Shown one piece after another: positions 44,791 to 51,996 of a stretch of DNA of 64,000 nucleotides. Positions within the stretch are counted from its first letter, which is position 1, and the number at the start of each line of letters is the position of its first letter. Under the pieces are notes generated by a model. That model was not told the origin of the DNA. It saw only the letters and a program-made list of their open reading frames with translations, and did not search any database. The translations under genes were made by a program, and so were the position numbers. Location of the stretch: the NCBI GenBank assembly GCA_019022495.1, contig JAFEKR010000002.1, positions 5,766,001 to 5,830,000 on the forward strand. Reading direction: 5' to 3'. This stretch comes from Epichloe hybrida. Lineage: Eukaryota > Ascomycota > Sordariomycetes > Hypocreales > Clavicipitaceae.

Positions 44791-47261
44791 CTGAGAGAAG
44801 CTCAAGCCCGGAGTCCGATGGAGGCTCGCGCTCCCACGGCGACGGCGACGGCGACGGCGACCATCCACCAGCGCGCAAGAGACAGCGCGTCCGCCTGAGC
44901 TGTCTCGAATGTCGGCGCCGGAAGCTCTCATGCGACAGAGGCTTCCCGTGCGAGCGCTGCATCAAAAGTGGCACCCCGGACCGGTGCAGTTATGAGTCCC
45001 GCAACGGAGAGGTCGTCAATGCATGTGCATCGTCTGGCATCCCGCCGCCTTTTGCGCAACTGGATTCACGCAGATTCGGCATCGGCATCGGCGTCGGCGT
45101 CGGCGCCGGCGATGGCCCCTCCGGCGGCCTCTCTTCTCGAGAAGACCACGACAGAATTCGAAGACTGGAACTGGAGCTCAACCAGCTCAAGAACCTGCTC
45201 ACCCGACCTGGCGGGGGGGCGCGTGGCTCGTTCGACGGCAGTACTGTCGCGGCAACCGACTCGCCGTCCAACAGGAGCAGGAGGGATGTGAACTTGACTG
45301 AACTTGACGGGCAGCCGCGTCTGGATGTGCAGGAGTGCATCGATGCCACGACGGTGGCGGCGGGTGAGAAGGGCGAACTCCGATTCTTCCGGGGCAAGGG
45401 GTTCCGCACGCGGTATTTCGGTCCGCACAACGCGAGCATGGCCTTTGTCGAGCTGACGGGGCTGTGTCCGTTCATGAGGGAGACGGCAGATGAGTGGCTC
45501 CGTCCAGTCATCCTGCATGACCGCAAGGACCGCAAGGACCGCAAGGACCGCAAGGACCGCAAGCGTCGTGCCGAGGACCGTGATGCCATCTCGGAGAAGC
45601 AGGACCCCGAACTGGAGGCTCTCTTACCGGCCAGGGAGGAAGGCGACGCTCTCGTCTCCGTCTATCTGGACCAGTTCGAGCAAATCCACCGCATCGTCCA
45701 CATCCCCACGTTCCGCAACGAGTACGCCGAGTTCTGGAGGCCCGGCAGCAAGAATCGACATGCTGCCTTCACAGCCCTCGTCTTGGCCATGATGGCCGTG
45801 GCCAGCTGCGCTCACAACCGCGACAGCCCCAGGTTCATCGGCATGATGTCCAACGCTCGACACTGGGCGGAGAGATGGATCAACTCGTGCGACCTGTGGC
45901 TGTCCGGGCAGAGCCAGAAGCATCGCAGGCTCATTCATTTCCAGATCGCATGCCTGCTCTACCTCGGCAAGCGGGTCAACACGATCAAGAAGAAGAGGTT
46001 CTGGACCAGCTCGGGCGCCCTCGTTCAAGACGGCATCTCGGTCGGTCTCCATCGAGAACCCAGCCACATGGGAGGCGGGAAAATCACCGTCTACAACCAA
46101 GAAATGCGACGACGAATCTGGACCACGATGCAGGAGTTCGACATGCAGGCCTCGTTCGACCACGGCCTGCCCACGCTGCTCAGCCAACTCCACTACGACA
46201 CCAACCCTCCCAGGAACCTGGACGATGAGGACTTCGACGAGGCCACCACCACCAGCCTGCCGCCGCCCAAGCCAGCCGAGGAGTACACGTTCTGCTCGTT
46301 CCAGAACCTGACGCGCCGGAGTCTGCCCCTGAGACTGGAGCTCAGCCGGCTCCTGACGGGGCCCATGGCGGCGGAAATCGACTACGACCAGGCCATCCGC
46401 TTCACCAACGACCTGACGCACGAGATTGACGCCCTGCCGTCGTGGGACATGAAGAACCTCCAAGGCGGCGGCGGGGAGAAGAAGAACCCCCTCATCGCCT
46501 ACACGCTGCTCCACGTGCAGCTGCGGCAGTACATGATCCCCCTCCACCAGCCGTACCTGAAGCTGCGCAGGCAGAACTCCAAGTATCAGTACTCGGAAAT
46601 CATCTACTACAACGCCGCCCGCGACATCGTCCTGCTCCACGACAAGCTCCACGAGCAAGGCGTCCGCTCGCTCAACTTCCTGCGGGAGGACGCCCTGACG
46701 ACGGCCATCAACCTATGCAGCGTGACGATGCTGCAGCCCCGGGGTTCCACCAACATGATCATGATCAACTCGCATCACACGCTGAAGCTCATCGAGAAGT
46801 GCATAGCGATGAAGGAGGATCGCCTGCTGAGATGCGGCAACAACGAGCCCTGGGGCTACTCCATCATGTGCGCCGCCCTCGGCCTGCTCGAGGCACACCT
46901 GGGCACCAAGACGGCAGAGGTGGCCAAGTCGACGTCGGCCGAGAGATTCGTCAACCTTCACTACAGGCTGCTTGCCAACCAGGAGCCGCCGCCGCCGCCG
47001 CCGCCGCCGGCCGTCACGCCCATCATCGGGCTGGACAACGTGCCGGACCGGTCCAATTCTGCCACGCCATTCATCCTCCCGCCATCATCCCTACCAACAA
47101 CAACAACAACCGCCGCCCCCGTGGACCCAGCCGCTGCCCCGGCCACGGCCTGGATGTTCGGCGCAGGAGACCAGGCGCAGCCGTTCAACATGGATCCGAG
47201 CCTAGAGCTTCTTGGCCTGAATCTGAATGAGCTCTGGGGTGAATCGTGGGAGCTGGGCTAG
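44787..47261 (+). CDS. Zn2Cys6 transcription factor with fungal-specific middle domain
   Basis: A nuclear DNA-binding regulator; its target genes cannot be read from sequence. The intronless frame codes 824 aa. The binuclear zinc cluster uses Cys39, 42, 49, 55, 58 and 67 (spacing 2-6-5-2-8) after a basic KRQRVR stretch. A short coiled coil follows near residues 125-140 (LELELNQLKNLL). The Fungal_trans domain spans about 275-620, with IVHIPTFRNEYAEFW, the TSGALVQDGISVGLHREP motif and RRRIWTTMQEFDMQASFDHGLP. Low-complexity parts: a GD run (residues 18-25), five DRK repeats near residues 245-260, and Pro runs near 733. The last 40 residues are acidic and hydrophobic (LELLGLNLNELWGESWELG), a likely activation domain. 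A 14-codon uORF overlaps its start. Confidence 0.9.
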   Translation: MTERSSSPESDGGSRSHGDGDGDGDHPPARKRQRVRLSCLECRRRKLSCDRGFPCERCIKSGTPDRCSYESRNGEVVNACASSGIPPPFAQLDSRRFGIGIGVGVGAGDGPSGGLSSREDHDRIRRLELELNQLKNLLTRPGGGARGSFDGSTVAATDSPSNRSRRDVNLTELDGQPRLDVQECIDATTVAAGEKGELRFFRGKGFRTRYFGPHNASMAFVELTGLCPFMRETADEWLRPVILHDRKDRKDRKDRKDRKRRAEDRDAISEKQDPELEALLPAREEGDALVSVYLDQFEQIHRIVHIPTFRNEYAEFWRPGSKNRHAAFTALVLAMMAVASCAHNRDSPRFIGMMSNARHWAERWINSCDLWLSGQSQKHRRLIHFQIACLLYLGKRVNTIKKKRFWTSSGALVQDGISVGLHREPSHMGGGKITVYNQEMRRRIWTTMQEFDMQASFDHGLPTLLSQLHYDTNPPRNLDDEDFDEATTTSLPPPKPAEEYTFCSFQNLTRRSLPLRLELSRLLTGPMAAEIDYDQAIRFTNDLTHEIDALPSWDMKNLQGGGGEKKNPLIAYTLLHVQLRQYMIPLHQPYLKLRRQNSKYQYSEIIYYNAARDIVLLHDKLHEQGVRSLNFLREDALTTAINLCSVTMLQPRGSTNMIMINSHHTLKLIEKCIAMKEDRLLRCGNNEPWGYSIMCAALGLLEAHLGTKTAEVAKSTSAERFVNLHYRLLANQEPPPPPPPPAVTPIIGLDNVPDRSNSATPFILPPSSLPTTTTTAAPVDPAAAPATAWMFGAGDQAQPFNMDPSLELLGLNLNELWGESWELG
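45519..45563 (+). repeat. Five in-frame 9-bp repeats coding Asp-Arg-Lys
   Basis: gaccgcaag occurs five times without mismatch inside the Zn2Cys6 gene, coding a charged DRK run between the DNA-binding and middle domains. Exact identity at third positions suggests recent expansion. Confidence 0.9.
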
Positions 47262-47666
47262 ACCGGGTGGTCCTGCATCCCAAATGTCCCCCTTCTTTTC
47301 TCTCTTCTTTTTTCTTTTCTGTGTGTGGTTCAAGCAAGCTCTACATTCAGCAAAAAAAAGGGGGGGGGGGGGCAATATGCGAAGAGCGCTAATGACCAAA
47401 ATTTTGTGACTGGAGGGGAATGAATGCATGGCAACGTTTTGATGCCTTTTGATTTCGAGCTCCAAAATTCGGTATTCGTGTAATATCCGTGTGAACAAAT
47501 GAAAATCGTTAAAACCAGAAACGCCCGCCTGGCACCACAAAGTGGCACAAAGTGGATATATCCAGGTCCCTCTGACTCACTCCCCTGACTCGAGCCATCA
47601 TATCCACCAAAACGTGAAGAAGCCCTTTTCTACCACATTTGCTTGCAAAATTTTCAACGGAATCCA
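47262..47666. other. Intergenic, 3' flank of the Zn2Cys6 gene
   Basis: Contains an A/G run (about 47352-47371). Nothing else supported before the tRNA gene. Confidence 0.65.
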
Positions 47667-47801
47667 AGCAATTTGGCGCAGTGGAAGCGCGGTTAGTACC
47701 AGCCCTTTAATTCATCTCAAAATCCAAACCCCATCAAAATTAACAATGTAATAGCCGGGCTCATAACCCGGAGGTCGCACGATCGAAACGTGCAATTGCT
47801 A
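47667..47801 (+). tRNA. Initiator tRNA-Met (CAT) gene interrupted after the D arm by 63 nt
   Basis: Bases 47667-47691 and 47755-47801 join to a full 72-nt cloverleaf: acceptor AGCAATT/AATTGCT, D stem GCGC/GCGC, anticodon arm CCGGG-CTCATAA-CCCGG, variable AGGTC, T arm GCACG-ATCGAAA-CGTGC, and A73. A1:U72, the three G:C pairs at the base of the anticodon stem and the AUCGAAA loop mark a eukaryotic initiator. Box A (about 47674-47684) and box B (about 47781-47790) are intact but 63 bp further apart than usual. The insert 47692-47754 starts GTTAGT, has TTAACAA twelve bases before the end, and ends TAG, so it looks like a small spliceosomal intron. A T5 terminator follows at 47811. Canonical tRNA introns sit at 37/38; the inserted sequence cannot form such a fold because the anticodon arm is whole on the 3' side. 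Could be a pseudogene if the insert is not removed. Confidence 0.85.
47692..47754 (+). other. 63-nt intron-like insert within the initiator tRNA gene
   Basis: The insert lies between nucleotides 26 and 27 of the tRNA. Its removal exactly restores the cloverleaf, with a one-base ambiguity because G flanks both ends. Length, GT...AG ends and the TTAAC branch-like site match the pre-mRNA introns of the window. AGCCC at 47701-47705 can also pair with GGGCT at 47757-47761, which would open the anticodon stem in the precursor. Confidence 0.75.
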
Positions 47802-47810
47802 ATCCTCTAC

Positions 47811-47815
47811 TTTTT
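47811..47815 (+). terminator. RNA polymerase III terminator (T5)
   Basis: Five T residues start nine bases after the discriminator base of the tRNA, a normal pol III stop. Confidence 0.8.
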
Positions 47816-48640
47816 GCACTTTGGCAATCCCAACATGGTGCTTCTTTCTATTTCTGTTTTCTTATTTCATTTCCTTTTAACCTATGTATAGCTACTGGAA
47901 TGTGCTGTCATGTCATCTGTGGGGGTTTTTTTTTTTTGACAAGCCTTGTGATTGCTTGTGCGTGATTGGGTGACGACGCCCCCGGTTGTTGCTCTTGTTC
48001 ACTTCTTGTCCGTTCACAGAAGAGAAGAGGAAACTTGGATTTGAACATGGCGGTGTGTTGACTCCTGACTTTCCGAACATTGCCTACTCGGCTTGCCGCT
48101 CAGGTTGTCTAGTTGAGAGAGACCTCGCGTTCCCCCCATCTGCACAATAGTAAGTGACGAAACGAAATACCAGTCCAGTATAACAACTCCTGACCCTCTC
48201 TCTGGTGAATAGATGTTTGCTTTATTCACCGAAGTAACACGCAGGCATACACCGACAATGTCGGGAGCCGAATGAGGCCATGCGTGCGTGATTCAGCTTC
48301 CCCCCCCCCCCCCTCCCATGTCGCTGCAGTTTCTGTTGAGTTTTGCGTCTTCCCGTCTGTTTTTGTTGCACAGAGCCCACCAAACCGGGCCCGTTCCAGG
48401 CGACAATTTGTATAACCTGCCAGGCAGGTTCACGGTCAAGACGATGTGCGTATCACCAGACGGTCTCGATGGGGAGCAAAAAAAAAAAAAAACCGAGACT
48501 CTGGCATGCAAAGTCGCTTGCTGCACGACAGGTGACAAGGTTGTCTCTCGGAAACTTGGCTCGGACAAGTTGAGCGTTGATACTACGTCTCCGGAGCCTC
48601 GTCTTCAATCTCTGAAATCAACCGGAGGGGAACCAGAAAG

Positions 48641-48648
48641 TATATAAA
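48641..48648 (+). promoter_or_regulatory. TATA box upstream of the SMP-like gene
   Basis: TATATAAA lies 158 bases before the start codon at 48806, preceded by an AGGGG stress-response-like element (about 48626). Strong TATA plus AGGGG fits an inducible gene; the link is inference. Confidence 0.5.
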
Positions 48649-48805
48649 CCAGCAACGTTTCCGGCCACGACTAAAAAAAAAAAAAACCTTTGGGCAAAAC
48701 CAAACACTAAATAACATTCCTGACTTGACCACTTCGTTTCCCAGATCCCCCCCTTTTTCCGCATCGCATCATCAGTTCAAATTCAACCCAAATCACTCCC
48801 CCAAC

Positions 48806-49085
48806 ATGCCTGAACATAAGATGAGCAAAGCGGATGCCTCGAGAATCCAGAGCGGACAGGTACGTGCTGTTGTGCCGTAGTCCCCGACTTCGACTTCTTC
48901 AACTAAACACAGAACCATAGGCGAGAAACGGGGGAGACATGTCCTCCAGTGGCTTTGCATCTCGGGCTCAAGCTGCGGGAGATCGCAACGCCCAGGCTTC
49001 TGGCAATGGCAATGGCAATGGCAATGGCAATGGCAATGGTGGCACGAAGACGGATGCCGGGGCTGGCGCCGGTGGGAAGAAGTAG
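48806..49085 (+). CDS. Small SMP-domain-like protein (72 aa)
   Basis: Exons 48806-48859 and 48921-49085, phase 0, with a 61-nt intron (GTACGT...CATAG). The protein opens MPEHKMSKADASRIQSGQAR and continues GGDMSSSGFASRAQAAGDRN, which resembles the seed-maturation-protein (SMP) domain of plants and a group of short fungal proteins. It then has Gly-Asn repeats coded by a GGCAAT hexanucleotide and ends in GAGAGGKK. It is hydrophilic, without membrane segment or signal peptide. A role in desiccation or spore stress is suggested only by the family name and the promoter. It is the kind of gene automated pipelines miss. Confidence 0.75.
49002..49037 (+). repeat. Six GGCAAT units coding Gly-Asn
   Basis: Six perfect hexanucleotide units lie in frame inside the SMP-like gene. 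Copy number can vary without frame loss. Confidence 0.9.
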
Positions 49086-49322
49086 GCGCAAGTTGTCGAT
49101 TGCTGCATTGTTGCTCGCGCTTGTTCTAGCCTTCTCGATGTAATCAATGTAGTTATTGTGCCCGACAGAAGCAACCCTCTCGTCGCCGTCTGTCTCGCCT
49201 TTCGCCACGTGTCTCTTGACGATGAGTGAGGAGAGACCAGTGATTCCACATTGGCCCATGTCTTTTCAATTCTTTGCATCCCCCCCCCCCTGCCTTGCTA
49301 AATAAAACGGGCTAGCTCTGAT

Positions 49323-51996
49323 TTATTTCATTTTTTTCCTCTTCAGGTCTAGTGCTTCTTTACCAAGCTTGGCCAATGCATCCTCGTATCCCTTCATCTT
49401 TTCCTCGCTCATCTCGTCTATTCTCGGTCTTTCCACCTTTTGTGCTCTCCTGATGCCTTGGTTCTTGGCGATCTTGCCCCAGAACCATCCGCTCTCGTCA
49501 TCGTCAACCAGTGTCCATGCACAGCCCGTTCGTCCTGCACGAGCCGTTCGGCCAACACGGTGCACATAGCCTGCTACGCTGGCAGGCAAATCGTAGTTGA
49601 TTACGTGTCCCAGCTTCGGAATGTCGATACCTCGAGCCACCAGGTCGGAAGCGATGATGAGACGAACGGGCGAAGAAGACGTGGTGAATGCCCGGAGAAT
49701 CTTTCGTCGAATGTGAGTAGGTGTAGTAGAGGTCAATGTGCTGACCTGCGTTTCGAGTGAGGCATCCAATAACGTGAGAAGACGAGACAATCGGAGCGCA
49801 TGTTCGTTGGATTTAGTAAAAGATCAGGGAGATGGGTAGTTGTGATTTTGATGCCGCGGACATCTTGGTTCCATCGTCACCTTCTGAAGAATCATCAGAG
49901 TCGGAGGCGCTCGTGTCCGAAGAATCCGAGCTGCCATCTGACTCGTCAGAACATGTATCTGAACTGTCATCAGACGAGCCATGGCCATTTTCTTCCAGTG
50001 CTGAAGAAAAGTCTCTATTCGTAGTGCCCGCCTTCATGTGAGGACCTCGTAAAAGATCGAGTAGGTACAGCGGCTTGAGATTCGCCTCGTGTACTCGCAC
50101 CGCATATTCCCGCAATGTCGCAGGTAATGTGTGCTCGGCAACCTGGACGCTTGCATCGTTCTCAAGAACTATCAATTGGGGTCTCCTCAAGGTCAGCCGA
50201 TTCAAAAGACTCAAGTCCCTGGTCAGCGTGGCACTGAGAATCACTTTTCGAACGCCGGAATACGCCATGTCAGGGAAGTCGCGGGCGCTGAACTTGTCGG
50301 TCTGGAACTTATCTAGTACCAGCTCTAACCACCCCTGGAAGCTTTGCGCCAGGAGCTTATCGGCTTCGTCCACAACCAGCCAGCGGACGTAATCGAGGTT
50401 GAATCCGGGCGTTTGCTCGATATGCTCTACGAGTCGGCCTGGGGTGCAGATGAGTACATCCACTTTGGACGTGAAATCGACGACTTCGCCTTTCCAGGCG
50501 CCGAGACGAGGGTCGCCAACGGCAAAATCAAGGTCAATCGCATCGTCTATATCGGCTGACATGGGCCCGCTCGCTCGCTGTTGTCTGTCCTCTTCTTGTA
50601 TTCTTTGGTAAGCGTCCGGGTCGTAGCGTGAGTCGCGGTCGACAAGGGCCTCTTGTTCCGACTTTATCGACTGACTGCCAATGGCGACTCCGACGCGAAC
50701 TCGTTTCCGGCCCTCGCCTTCGTATGCCTTGGCGCAGATTTCGAACGCCTCTTGCGCTTGCTTGACCAGCTCTCTGGTCGGAAGCACAACCAGAGCTCTC
50801 AGCCTTGTCACCACGCCCTGGCTGATGTCGCGGACGATCGGTAAGGCGTATGCAAGGGTCTTGCCGGATCCCGTGGCCGCGGACACCAATACATCGCCGG
50901 CGCGATGTTTGCTTGTAGGGAGCAGCAGAGGTATCGCAGCGGTCTGAACGGCGAAGCCTTCCGAGTATCCCTTTTCAGCTAGGATGCGGGACGCGCGCTG
51001 TGGGATTCCCAGGTCTGTGAACGGTCTTCGGGTGTCCTGGGAGACTCGTAAGGGAGCAGAGAGCCACGTGGGTAGTGTGTCGTACGTGGGCTTGAACTCG
51101 TCGTCTGGTAGCACGGCAGGTTGGGGCAATGGCTCCAGGGCATGCACTTCCACCGATTCCCCGTCAGAGTCACTGCCTTGGTCTTTGGCGACTACGTTTG
51201 CCAGCTGGATCGATTTGGACTTTCGTTGTAAAATGGCCTTGTGTCGTGTCGATGCCTCGTCGTCCACCTCAATCCTTCCCTCTGGCGTAACTTGTTTGCC
51301 TGGCTTCTTTTTCTTATCCCGTTTGGGCTTCTTTTCTTTCGCTGGCAACTCGGGTTCCGGCTGCGTACTCGTAGTCGGCGCTTCATCCACGTCCATGTCG
51401 CCATTTGAGTTTTCGTCAACGTTTACAGAAGTATATTGACCTTCCATGACCGTATCTTTTTCCTCTTCAACCGTCGGCCCGTGCTCGATTTGCTTGTGTC
51501 GTGGTGATTTTGACGGCGCCTTCCCGCGTACTTGTGAATCGTCAGAGTCAGAGGCAGAGTCGTCCGCCGTCCGTGTTCGTTGTTTGCGCTTCCTCCTGTT
51601 CTTCTTCTTCCTCTCGACCGACTGTTCATTTGAGGTCGACTCGCCCCCTTTTGTGAAGACATTCCTCTCCATGGATTCCGTCTTCCCTTTCCTCAGCTTC
51701 TTGGTAGCCGATTGCGGCTCGTTTGCAGACTCCCTTTTCCGCTTCGAATTGACCGATCCAGGTTCATCGTCGAAGAATTGGATCGGCTTTGGATCAGGTG
51801 CAACTGCAGTAGTCGTCTTCGCCTTGGCAGCCGGAACATAGCGTGTATAGCTGAATGCTTCTACCAAATTTGGCTTGATCACATCCACCTTGGTCGCAGA
51901 CTCCGACAGCTTGCGCTCTGGTGTGGCCGCCGCCGGTGACTGAGCGGCAGCCGGGGTTTTCGAGCCCTTTGACGGAGGCACGTACCTCGCGTACAT
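49323..51996 (-). CDS. DBP6: DEAD-box RNA helicase DBP6 (60S ribosome assembly), with a one-base frame break
   Basis: Dbp6 acts in early pre-60S particles in the nucleolus. Residues from the start are Ser/Lys-rich and acidic, then the helicase core: AATGSGKTLAYALP (motif I), PTRELV (Ia), TPGRLVEH (Ib), VVDEADKLL (II), SATLTRDL (III), then a Ser/Asp-rich insert, SDLVARGIDIP (V) and HRVGRTARAGR (VI). The frame breaks at 49818-49821: the expected LIFTKSNEHALRLSRLL segment spans a TTTT that should be TTT, so motif IV and the C-terminal 160 residues lie in the next frame. Without the extra base the product is 890 aa. No splice signals fit. The start at 51996 (MYARYVPPSK) is chosen; an in-frame ATG at 52116 would add 40 residues. 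It is divergent from GPI3. Confidence 0.85.

Follow-up and report, generated by a model that had tools for sequence, protein, structure and literature searches.

A split initiator tRNA-Met gene in an Epichloe genome, probably interrupted by a spliceosomal-type intron

An initiator tRNA-Met gene interrupted between tRNA positions 26 and 27 lies in the window, the stretch of 64,000 nucleotides of contig C69 that was analysed here. From sequence comparison, we propose that it is probably a functional second initiator tRNA-Met locus with a U2-type GT-AG spliceosomal intron at 26/27. This reading is favoured because the donor, the TAAC of the branch site and the acceptor are kept in a second copy of the locus, on contig C71, while the rest of the insert diverges, and because changes in the tRNA body preserve base pairs. 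The layout of the gene is as follows.

47667-47801, + strand: initiator tRNA-Met (CAU) gene, two exons and an insert, read directly from the sequence
47667-47691, + strand: exon 1, with acceptor 5′ strand, box A, D arm and G26; 25 nt, identical in the four initiator genes found in the genome
47692-47754, + strand: insert, a candidate spliceosomal-type intron at tRNA positions 26/27; 63 nt with GT-AG ends; absent from the genes on contigs C76 and C146; C71 counterpart 62 nt and diverged
47692-47697, + strand: putative 5′ splice site GTTAGT; identical in C71; one mismatch (+3) to GTRWGT
47740-47744, + strand: putative branch site TTAAC, branch A at 47743; CTAAC in C71; 11 nt from branch A to the 3′ cut in both
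47752-47754, + strand: putative 3′ splice site TAG; CAG in C71
47755-47801, + strand: exon 2, with anticodon arm (CAU), variable loop, T arm (ATCGAAA loop, box B), acceptor 3′ strand and A73; 47 nt
47811-47815, + strand: TTTTT run, candidate polymerase III terminator; a T5 run at equal distance in C71

The joined exons form all 21 of the 21 standard pairs over four stems in a 72-nt sequence that ARAGORN names tRNA-Met(cat), which bears out the proposal of an earlier note that removal of the 63 nt from 47692 to 47754 restores a 72-nt initiator cloverleaf. The CAU anticodon, the full cloverleaf, the length of 72 nt and A73 are all as in an initiator. An A1-U72 pair and three G-C pairs in the anticodon stem are features of initiator tRNAs, and the joined exons have these together with A54 in the T loop. 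A54 is given for initiator tRNAs in the available part of PMC3978253. The placement of the cut is ambiguous by 1 nt, since sliding it to G|GTTAG..TA|G yields the same product; 26/27 with GT-AG ends is thus one of two placements. The split at 26/27 claimed in the earlier note agrees with the intronless initiator genes of the same genome, which define the ends of the insert at this point.

Before splicing, the gene is hard to recognise. In the stretch from 46000 to 50000, the unspliced gene gave no match to the Rfam tRNA model up to E = 1, and ARAGORN made no call at the setting used. When anticodon-loop introns were allowed, ARAGORN misread the unspliced window copy as tRNA-Gly(acc) and the C71 copy as tRNA-Val(aac). 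In both split copies, the GGTTA at the exon 1/intron border (47691-47695) is complementary to the TAACC of the anticodon loop and stem (47764-47768), which explains these false calls. Pairing of the start of the intron, with G26 (GGUUA), to UAACC could switch the RNA between a splice-ready fold and a tRNA-like one, or could be without significance.

The genome, 79.9 Mb in 156 contigs, was searched for initiator genes by patterns that could miss a more diverged gene, and four were found, forming two loci that are each present on two similar contigs. The split locus is on C69 (the window) and at C71:150523-150656, homeologous contigs with the insert at the same place; the intronless locus is at C76:533707-533778 and C146:1730567-1730638, and these two are identical within the gene. 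A search with exon 1 gave seven matches, of which four were exact and belong to the four genes; the other three, each with one mismatch, were rejected as initiator genes since no initiator 3′ half lies behind them. A pattern combining the anticodon loop with the initiator T loop found four 3′ halves in the genome, those of the same four genes, although this pattern is not specific alone (15 matches in a reversed control) and the genes were recognised by their whole sequence. The count bearing on the earlier note's question, whether each initiator copy carries the insert, is therefore two of four: C69 and C71 have it, C76 and C146 do not. The same note held that another intact initiator gene, combined with a lack of mature RNA from the split one, would speak against its reading. 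Two intronless initiator genes do exist, so that the split gene need not be used; the other half of that argument concerns mature RNA. A TATA-like ATTTATATATAG lies upstream of the intronless locus on both C76 and C146, and by eye none is seen within 60 nt before the split locus, a difference that may correspond to different promoter strength.

The C71 counterpart of the region aligns piecewise along about 14 kb at 87–94% identity. The adjoining DBP6-type helicase has 96% identity to that of Epichloe festucae and 94% to that of E. bromicola, and the C71 helicase has 99.9% identity to protein P0003. We infer that the genome is that of an interspecific Epichloe hybrid. The position common to the two homeologs indicates that the intron would predate the divergence of the two lineages combined here. 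Two further observations concern the helicase gene, which is on the − strand. Compared with E. festucae and with the continuous C71 copy, it is split by a frameshift at 49813-49820, either an assembly error or a broken homeolog. Within it, 49840-49874 weakly matches mir-9235 (30 bits against a cut-off of 95), most likely by chance.

Between the window and C71 copies, substitutions affect 3 of the 72 exon nucleotides (4.2%), 29% of the intron and 10–22% of the flanks. At a rate of 18%, three or fewer changes in 72 exon nt have a probability of 0.0005; at 14%, the value is 0.0065. Of the three exon changes, two turn T-stem pair 52-62 from C-G into A-U, and the remaining one falls in the variable loop; the simulated chance that three changes include one such double change and break no pair is 0.006. 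These homeolog statistics compare only two split copies, and each rests on few changes. Relative to the intronless locus, the tRNA body of the window copy differs only by a double change at T-stem pair 49-65, which again preserves the pair and gives the split locus its G49-C65. Given the conservation of exons, stem pairs, splice signals and T5 run, both split copies appear to be maintained in tRNA body and splice signals alike, and the substitution pattern indicates that both would have been under selection since the lineages split.

The insert has the signals that the earlier note had ascribed to it, namely a GTTAGT start, a TTAAC, which lies at 47740-47744, and a TAG end, and both split copies have GT-AG ends. 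The donor of both copies is close to GTRWGT, with only the purine at +3 missing. The branch sequence of C71, ACTAAC, fits RCTRAY, and ATTAAC in the window has one mismatch. In the available part of PMC5832005, about two thirds of the canonical donors of fungal U3 introns are GTRWGT and nearly all the rest have a deviation at a single one of three positions; RCTRAC is the branch pattern of 129 of 138 fungal U3 introns, and the fungal branch-to-acceptor distance is given as 6–36 nt. With the criteria set at a donor matching GTAAGT in at least five of six positions, a branch motif and YAG, 2 of the window's 63,937 + strand 63-mers qualify: the insert itself and 48150-48212. When the window and C71 inserts are aligned, 19 of 63 columns differ, yet the 12 columns that make up GTTAGT, TAAC and AG are all unchanged (hypergeometric probability 0.008, from two sequences).

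Introns of P450 genes in the same genome served as comparators. Twenty gap regions between P450 exon matches were available, of which 17 were analysed, L083-L085 being left out. These 17 gaps span 57–90 nt, a range that includes the 63 nt of the insert, consistent with the earlier note's statement that it is of mRNA-intron length. GTTAGT is absent among the donor candidates of 15 of the 17 gaps. Two of the 17, L066 and L067, are without a frame-consistent GT-AG pair, and in these, GCAAGT where the exon ends points to GC-AG introns. The absence of a T run from the insert was considered as a sign of polymerase III selection and dropped, as TTTT is also absent from 10 of the 17 gaps.

The likeliest alternative is that the split copies persist as relics of an initiator pseudogene that acquired an intron and from which tRNA is no longer made, with the intronless C76/C146 locus sufficing. 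The presence of intronless copies on two homeologous contigs is in keeping with this. Against it, substitutions are rarer in the exons than in the flanks and the intron, the double change in the T stem is compensatory, and the splice signals and T5 run are kept, which is unexpected in a dead copy. We regard such a relic as unlikely. The earlier note had left the choice between an unusual processing route and a pseudogene; with the signals kept in C71 and the pair-preserving changes, a spliceosomal route is now the better supported of the two and a pseudogene the less so.

Another possibility is that the locus is transcribed and spliced within a polymerase II transcript, for instance that of the Zn2Cys6 gene upstream, as part of its 3′ UTR, or some non-coding RNA, with the tRNA cut out later or never. 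The upstream Zn2Cys6 reading frame (Pfam Zn_clus, Fungal_trans) is on the same strand and stops about 400 nt away. Some 350 nt downstream of the tRNA, at 48150-48212, there is a stretch of 63 nt with GTAAGT, CTGAC and TAG that is nearly unchanged in C71 while its surroundings diverge. It could represent a small RNA or belong, as an intron, to an unlisted transcript; its GTGACGA and CTGA resemble box C/D elements. With this well-kept, intron-like 63-mer, a longer polymerase II transcript is conceivable. However, both copies retain the internal boxes and, directly behind the tRNA, the T5 run, and we consider a polymerase II origin quite improbable.

For a functional split gene with a spliceosomal intron, we propose the following maturation. 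RNA polymerase III would read the gene, with boxes A and B as its internal promoter, as far as the TTTTT run. The predicted minimum fold of the window pre-tRNA, and of that copy only, leaves the insert largely open and contains the acceptor, D, anticodon and T stems; the minimum fold of the C71 pre-tRNA breaks the D arm (−37.8 kcal/mol, vs. −33.1 with the cloverleaf enforced). The pre-tRNAs fold little better than shuffled sequences (z −0.52 and −1.85; of 200 shuffles, 57 and 10 do as well), and the spliced 72-mers have an RNAfold minimum other than the cloverleaf. The spliceosome would recognise GTTAGT, the YTAAC branch and YAG at the insert, which sits at the joint of the D stem and the anticodon stem. 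The insert would leave as a lariat, with G26 joined to C27, and the product would presumably mature like any initiator tRNA.

The insert might instead be an ectopic intron of the nucleomorph or Cyanidioschyzon kind, with a bulge-helix-bulge at which the tRNA endonuclease cuts. This motif has a 4-bp central helix between bulges. At the GT-AG placement, the central helix has 2 of 4 pairs in the window and 0 of 4 in C71; at the slid placement, the counts are 2 of 4 and 1 of 4. Both copies thus have only 0–2 of the 4 pairs at either placement. A reversed helix at the junction reaches 3 of 4 pairs in both copies at the GT-AG placement, and ectopic tRNA introns do occur in some algae, as described in the available part of PMC4090602. 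Cutting by the endonuclease would leave the conservation of GT, branch and AG unexplained, and we hold it very improbable.

The ARAGORN calls raise the alternative of a different tRNA, Gly(acc) or Val(aac), with a canonical 37/38 intron cut by the Sen endonuclease. Both copies allow a drawing with a 5-bp anticodon stem of GGTTA with TAACC, U33 and a purine at 37. The anticodon would then differ between homeologs, ACC vs. AAC; the part read as exon diverges, and CCGGGCTC, on this reading intronic, is the same in the four genes; a variable loop of 8 nt would result; the intronless genes join exactly at 26/27; and the T loop ATCGAAA has the A54 given for initiators in the available part of PMC3978253. 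We find this hardly credible. Group I or group II introns we assume to be set aside by size, and Hac1-type splicing we likewise take to be out of consideration. As to insertion of a transposon, or an origin in a mobile family of introners, for which many similar copies would be expected, the insert is single-copy at the sensitivity of the genome search, whose one match was the insert itself; sensitivity was low, as the C71 counterpart was missed, so that diverged copies would escape too.

Searches were extended to other sequences. In collections outside this genome, exon 1 followed by GT matched once in viral contigs and 15 times in genome contigs, a chance-like result in which 0 of the 16 has CTCATAA or ATCGAAA within 250 nt, and exon 2 gave no match in the viral contigs. 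Since these collections are viral and prokaryotic by description, the results have no bearing on conservation in fungi. Within the genome, ARAGORN read 28 other tRNA genes, 18 without an intron and 10 with an anticodon-loop intron of 10–29 nt, the labels being unverified. The 28 were taken from 63 Rfam-scored sequences out of 4008 candidates, and the intronless initiator genes are absent from the 63. ARAGORN seeks anticodon-loop introns only and misreads the split gene, and its labels therefore cannot exclude other introns of the kind proposed. Two U6 genes and two U3 genes found in the genome match their models end to end, the U3 genes over about 300 nt, with no large insert. For U6, this means that the genome yielded no other polymerase III transcript carrying an intron of this kind.

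The closest known systems are as follows. The U6 RNA of S. pombe is, like the split tRNA in our reading, made by polymerase III and spliced by the spliceosome, according to the available part of PMC8917221. The mRNA-type introns of fungal U6 differ in that the host is not a tRNA, and the two U6 genes found in this genome are without a large insert. Fungal U3 introns likewise combine short GT-AG introns and a fungal branch site with a structured RNA, and in some genomes one U3 copy has the intron and another has none, as here (PMC5832005, available part); in contrast to U3, the host here is a tRNA with an internal promoter, and the two U3 genes found in the genome lack a large insert. In the available text of this 2017 survey, U3 and U6 are the only small structured RNAs so far known to be often interrupted by introns (PMC5832005). 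Canonical Sen introns are also inserts in nuclear tRNA genes, at 37/38; here, the insert is at 26/27 by comparison with the intronless genes, has splice-site and branch signals, and shows no bulge-helix-bulge. Nucleomorph, Cyanidioschyzon and archaeal ectopic introns share a non-canonical position in the tRNA, but they go with the tRNA endonuclease (3–24 nt in the Guillardia nucleomorph; PMC4090602, available part) whereas the present insert has spliceosomal signals. In the open-licence literature on tRNA, U6 and related RNAs, we found no spliceosomal intron in a tRNA gene, and the accessible part of PMC4133162 has nothing on spliceosomal tRNA introns. The insert would be best explained as an mRNA-type intron, known before from small structured RNAs, in a host, a tRNA, that is new as far as the open-licence literature showed.

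Eukaryotic tRNA introns are thought to be handled by a dedicated endonuclease and a ligase. A tRNA that depends on the spliceosome, if true, joins two pathways held to be separate. tRNAs would then join U6 and U3 as small structured RNAs that have taken up spliceosomal introns, and the gene would be a natural test of the spliceosome on an uncapped, tightly folded transcript. Because Rfam and ARAGORN miss or misname the split gene, further such genes may hide in fungal genomes. It is tempting, though tentative, to go further: a nuclear tRNA made by polymerase III may be matured by the spliceosome and may have been kept so in both lineages, in which case part of the initiator supply, and with it translation initiation, would depend on splicing capacity.
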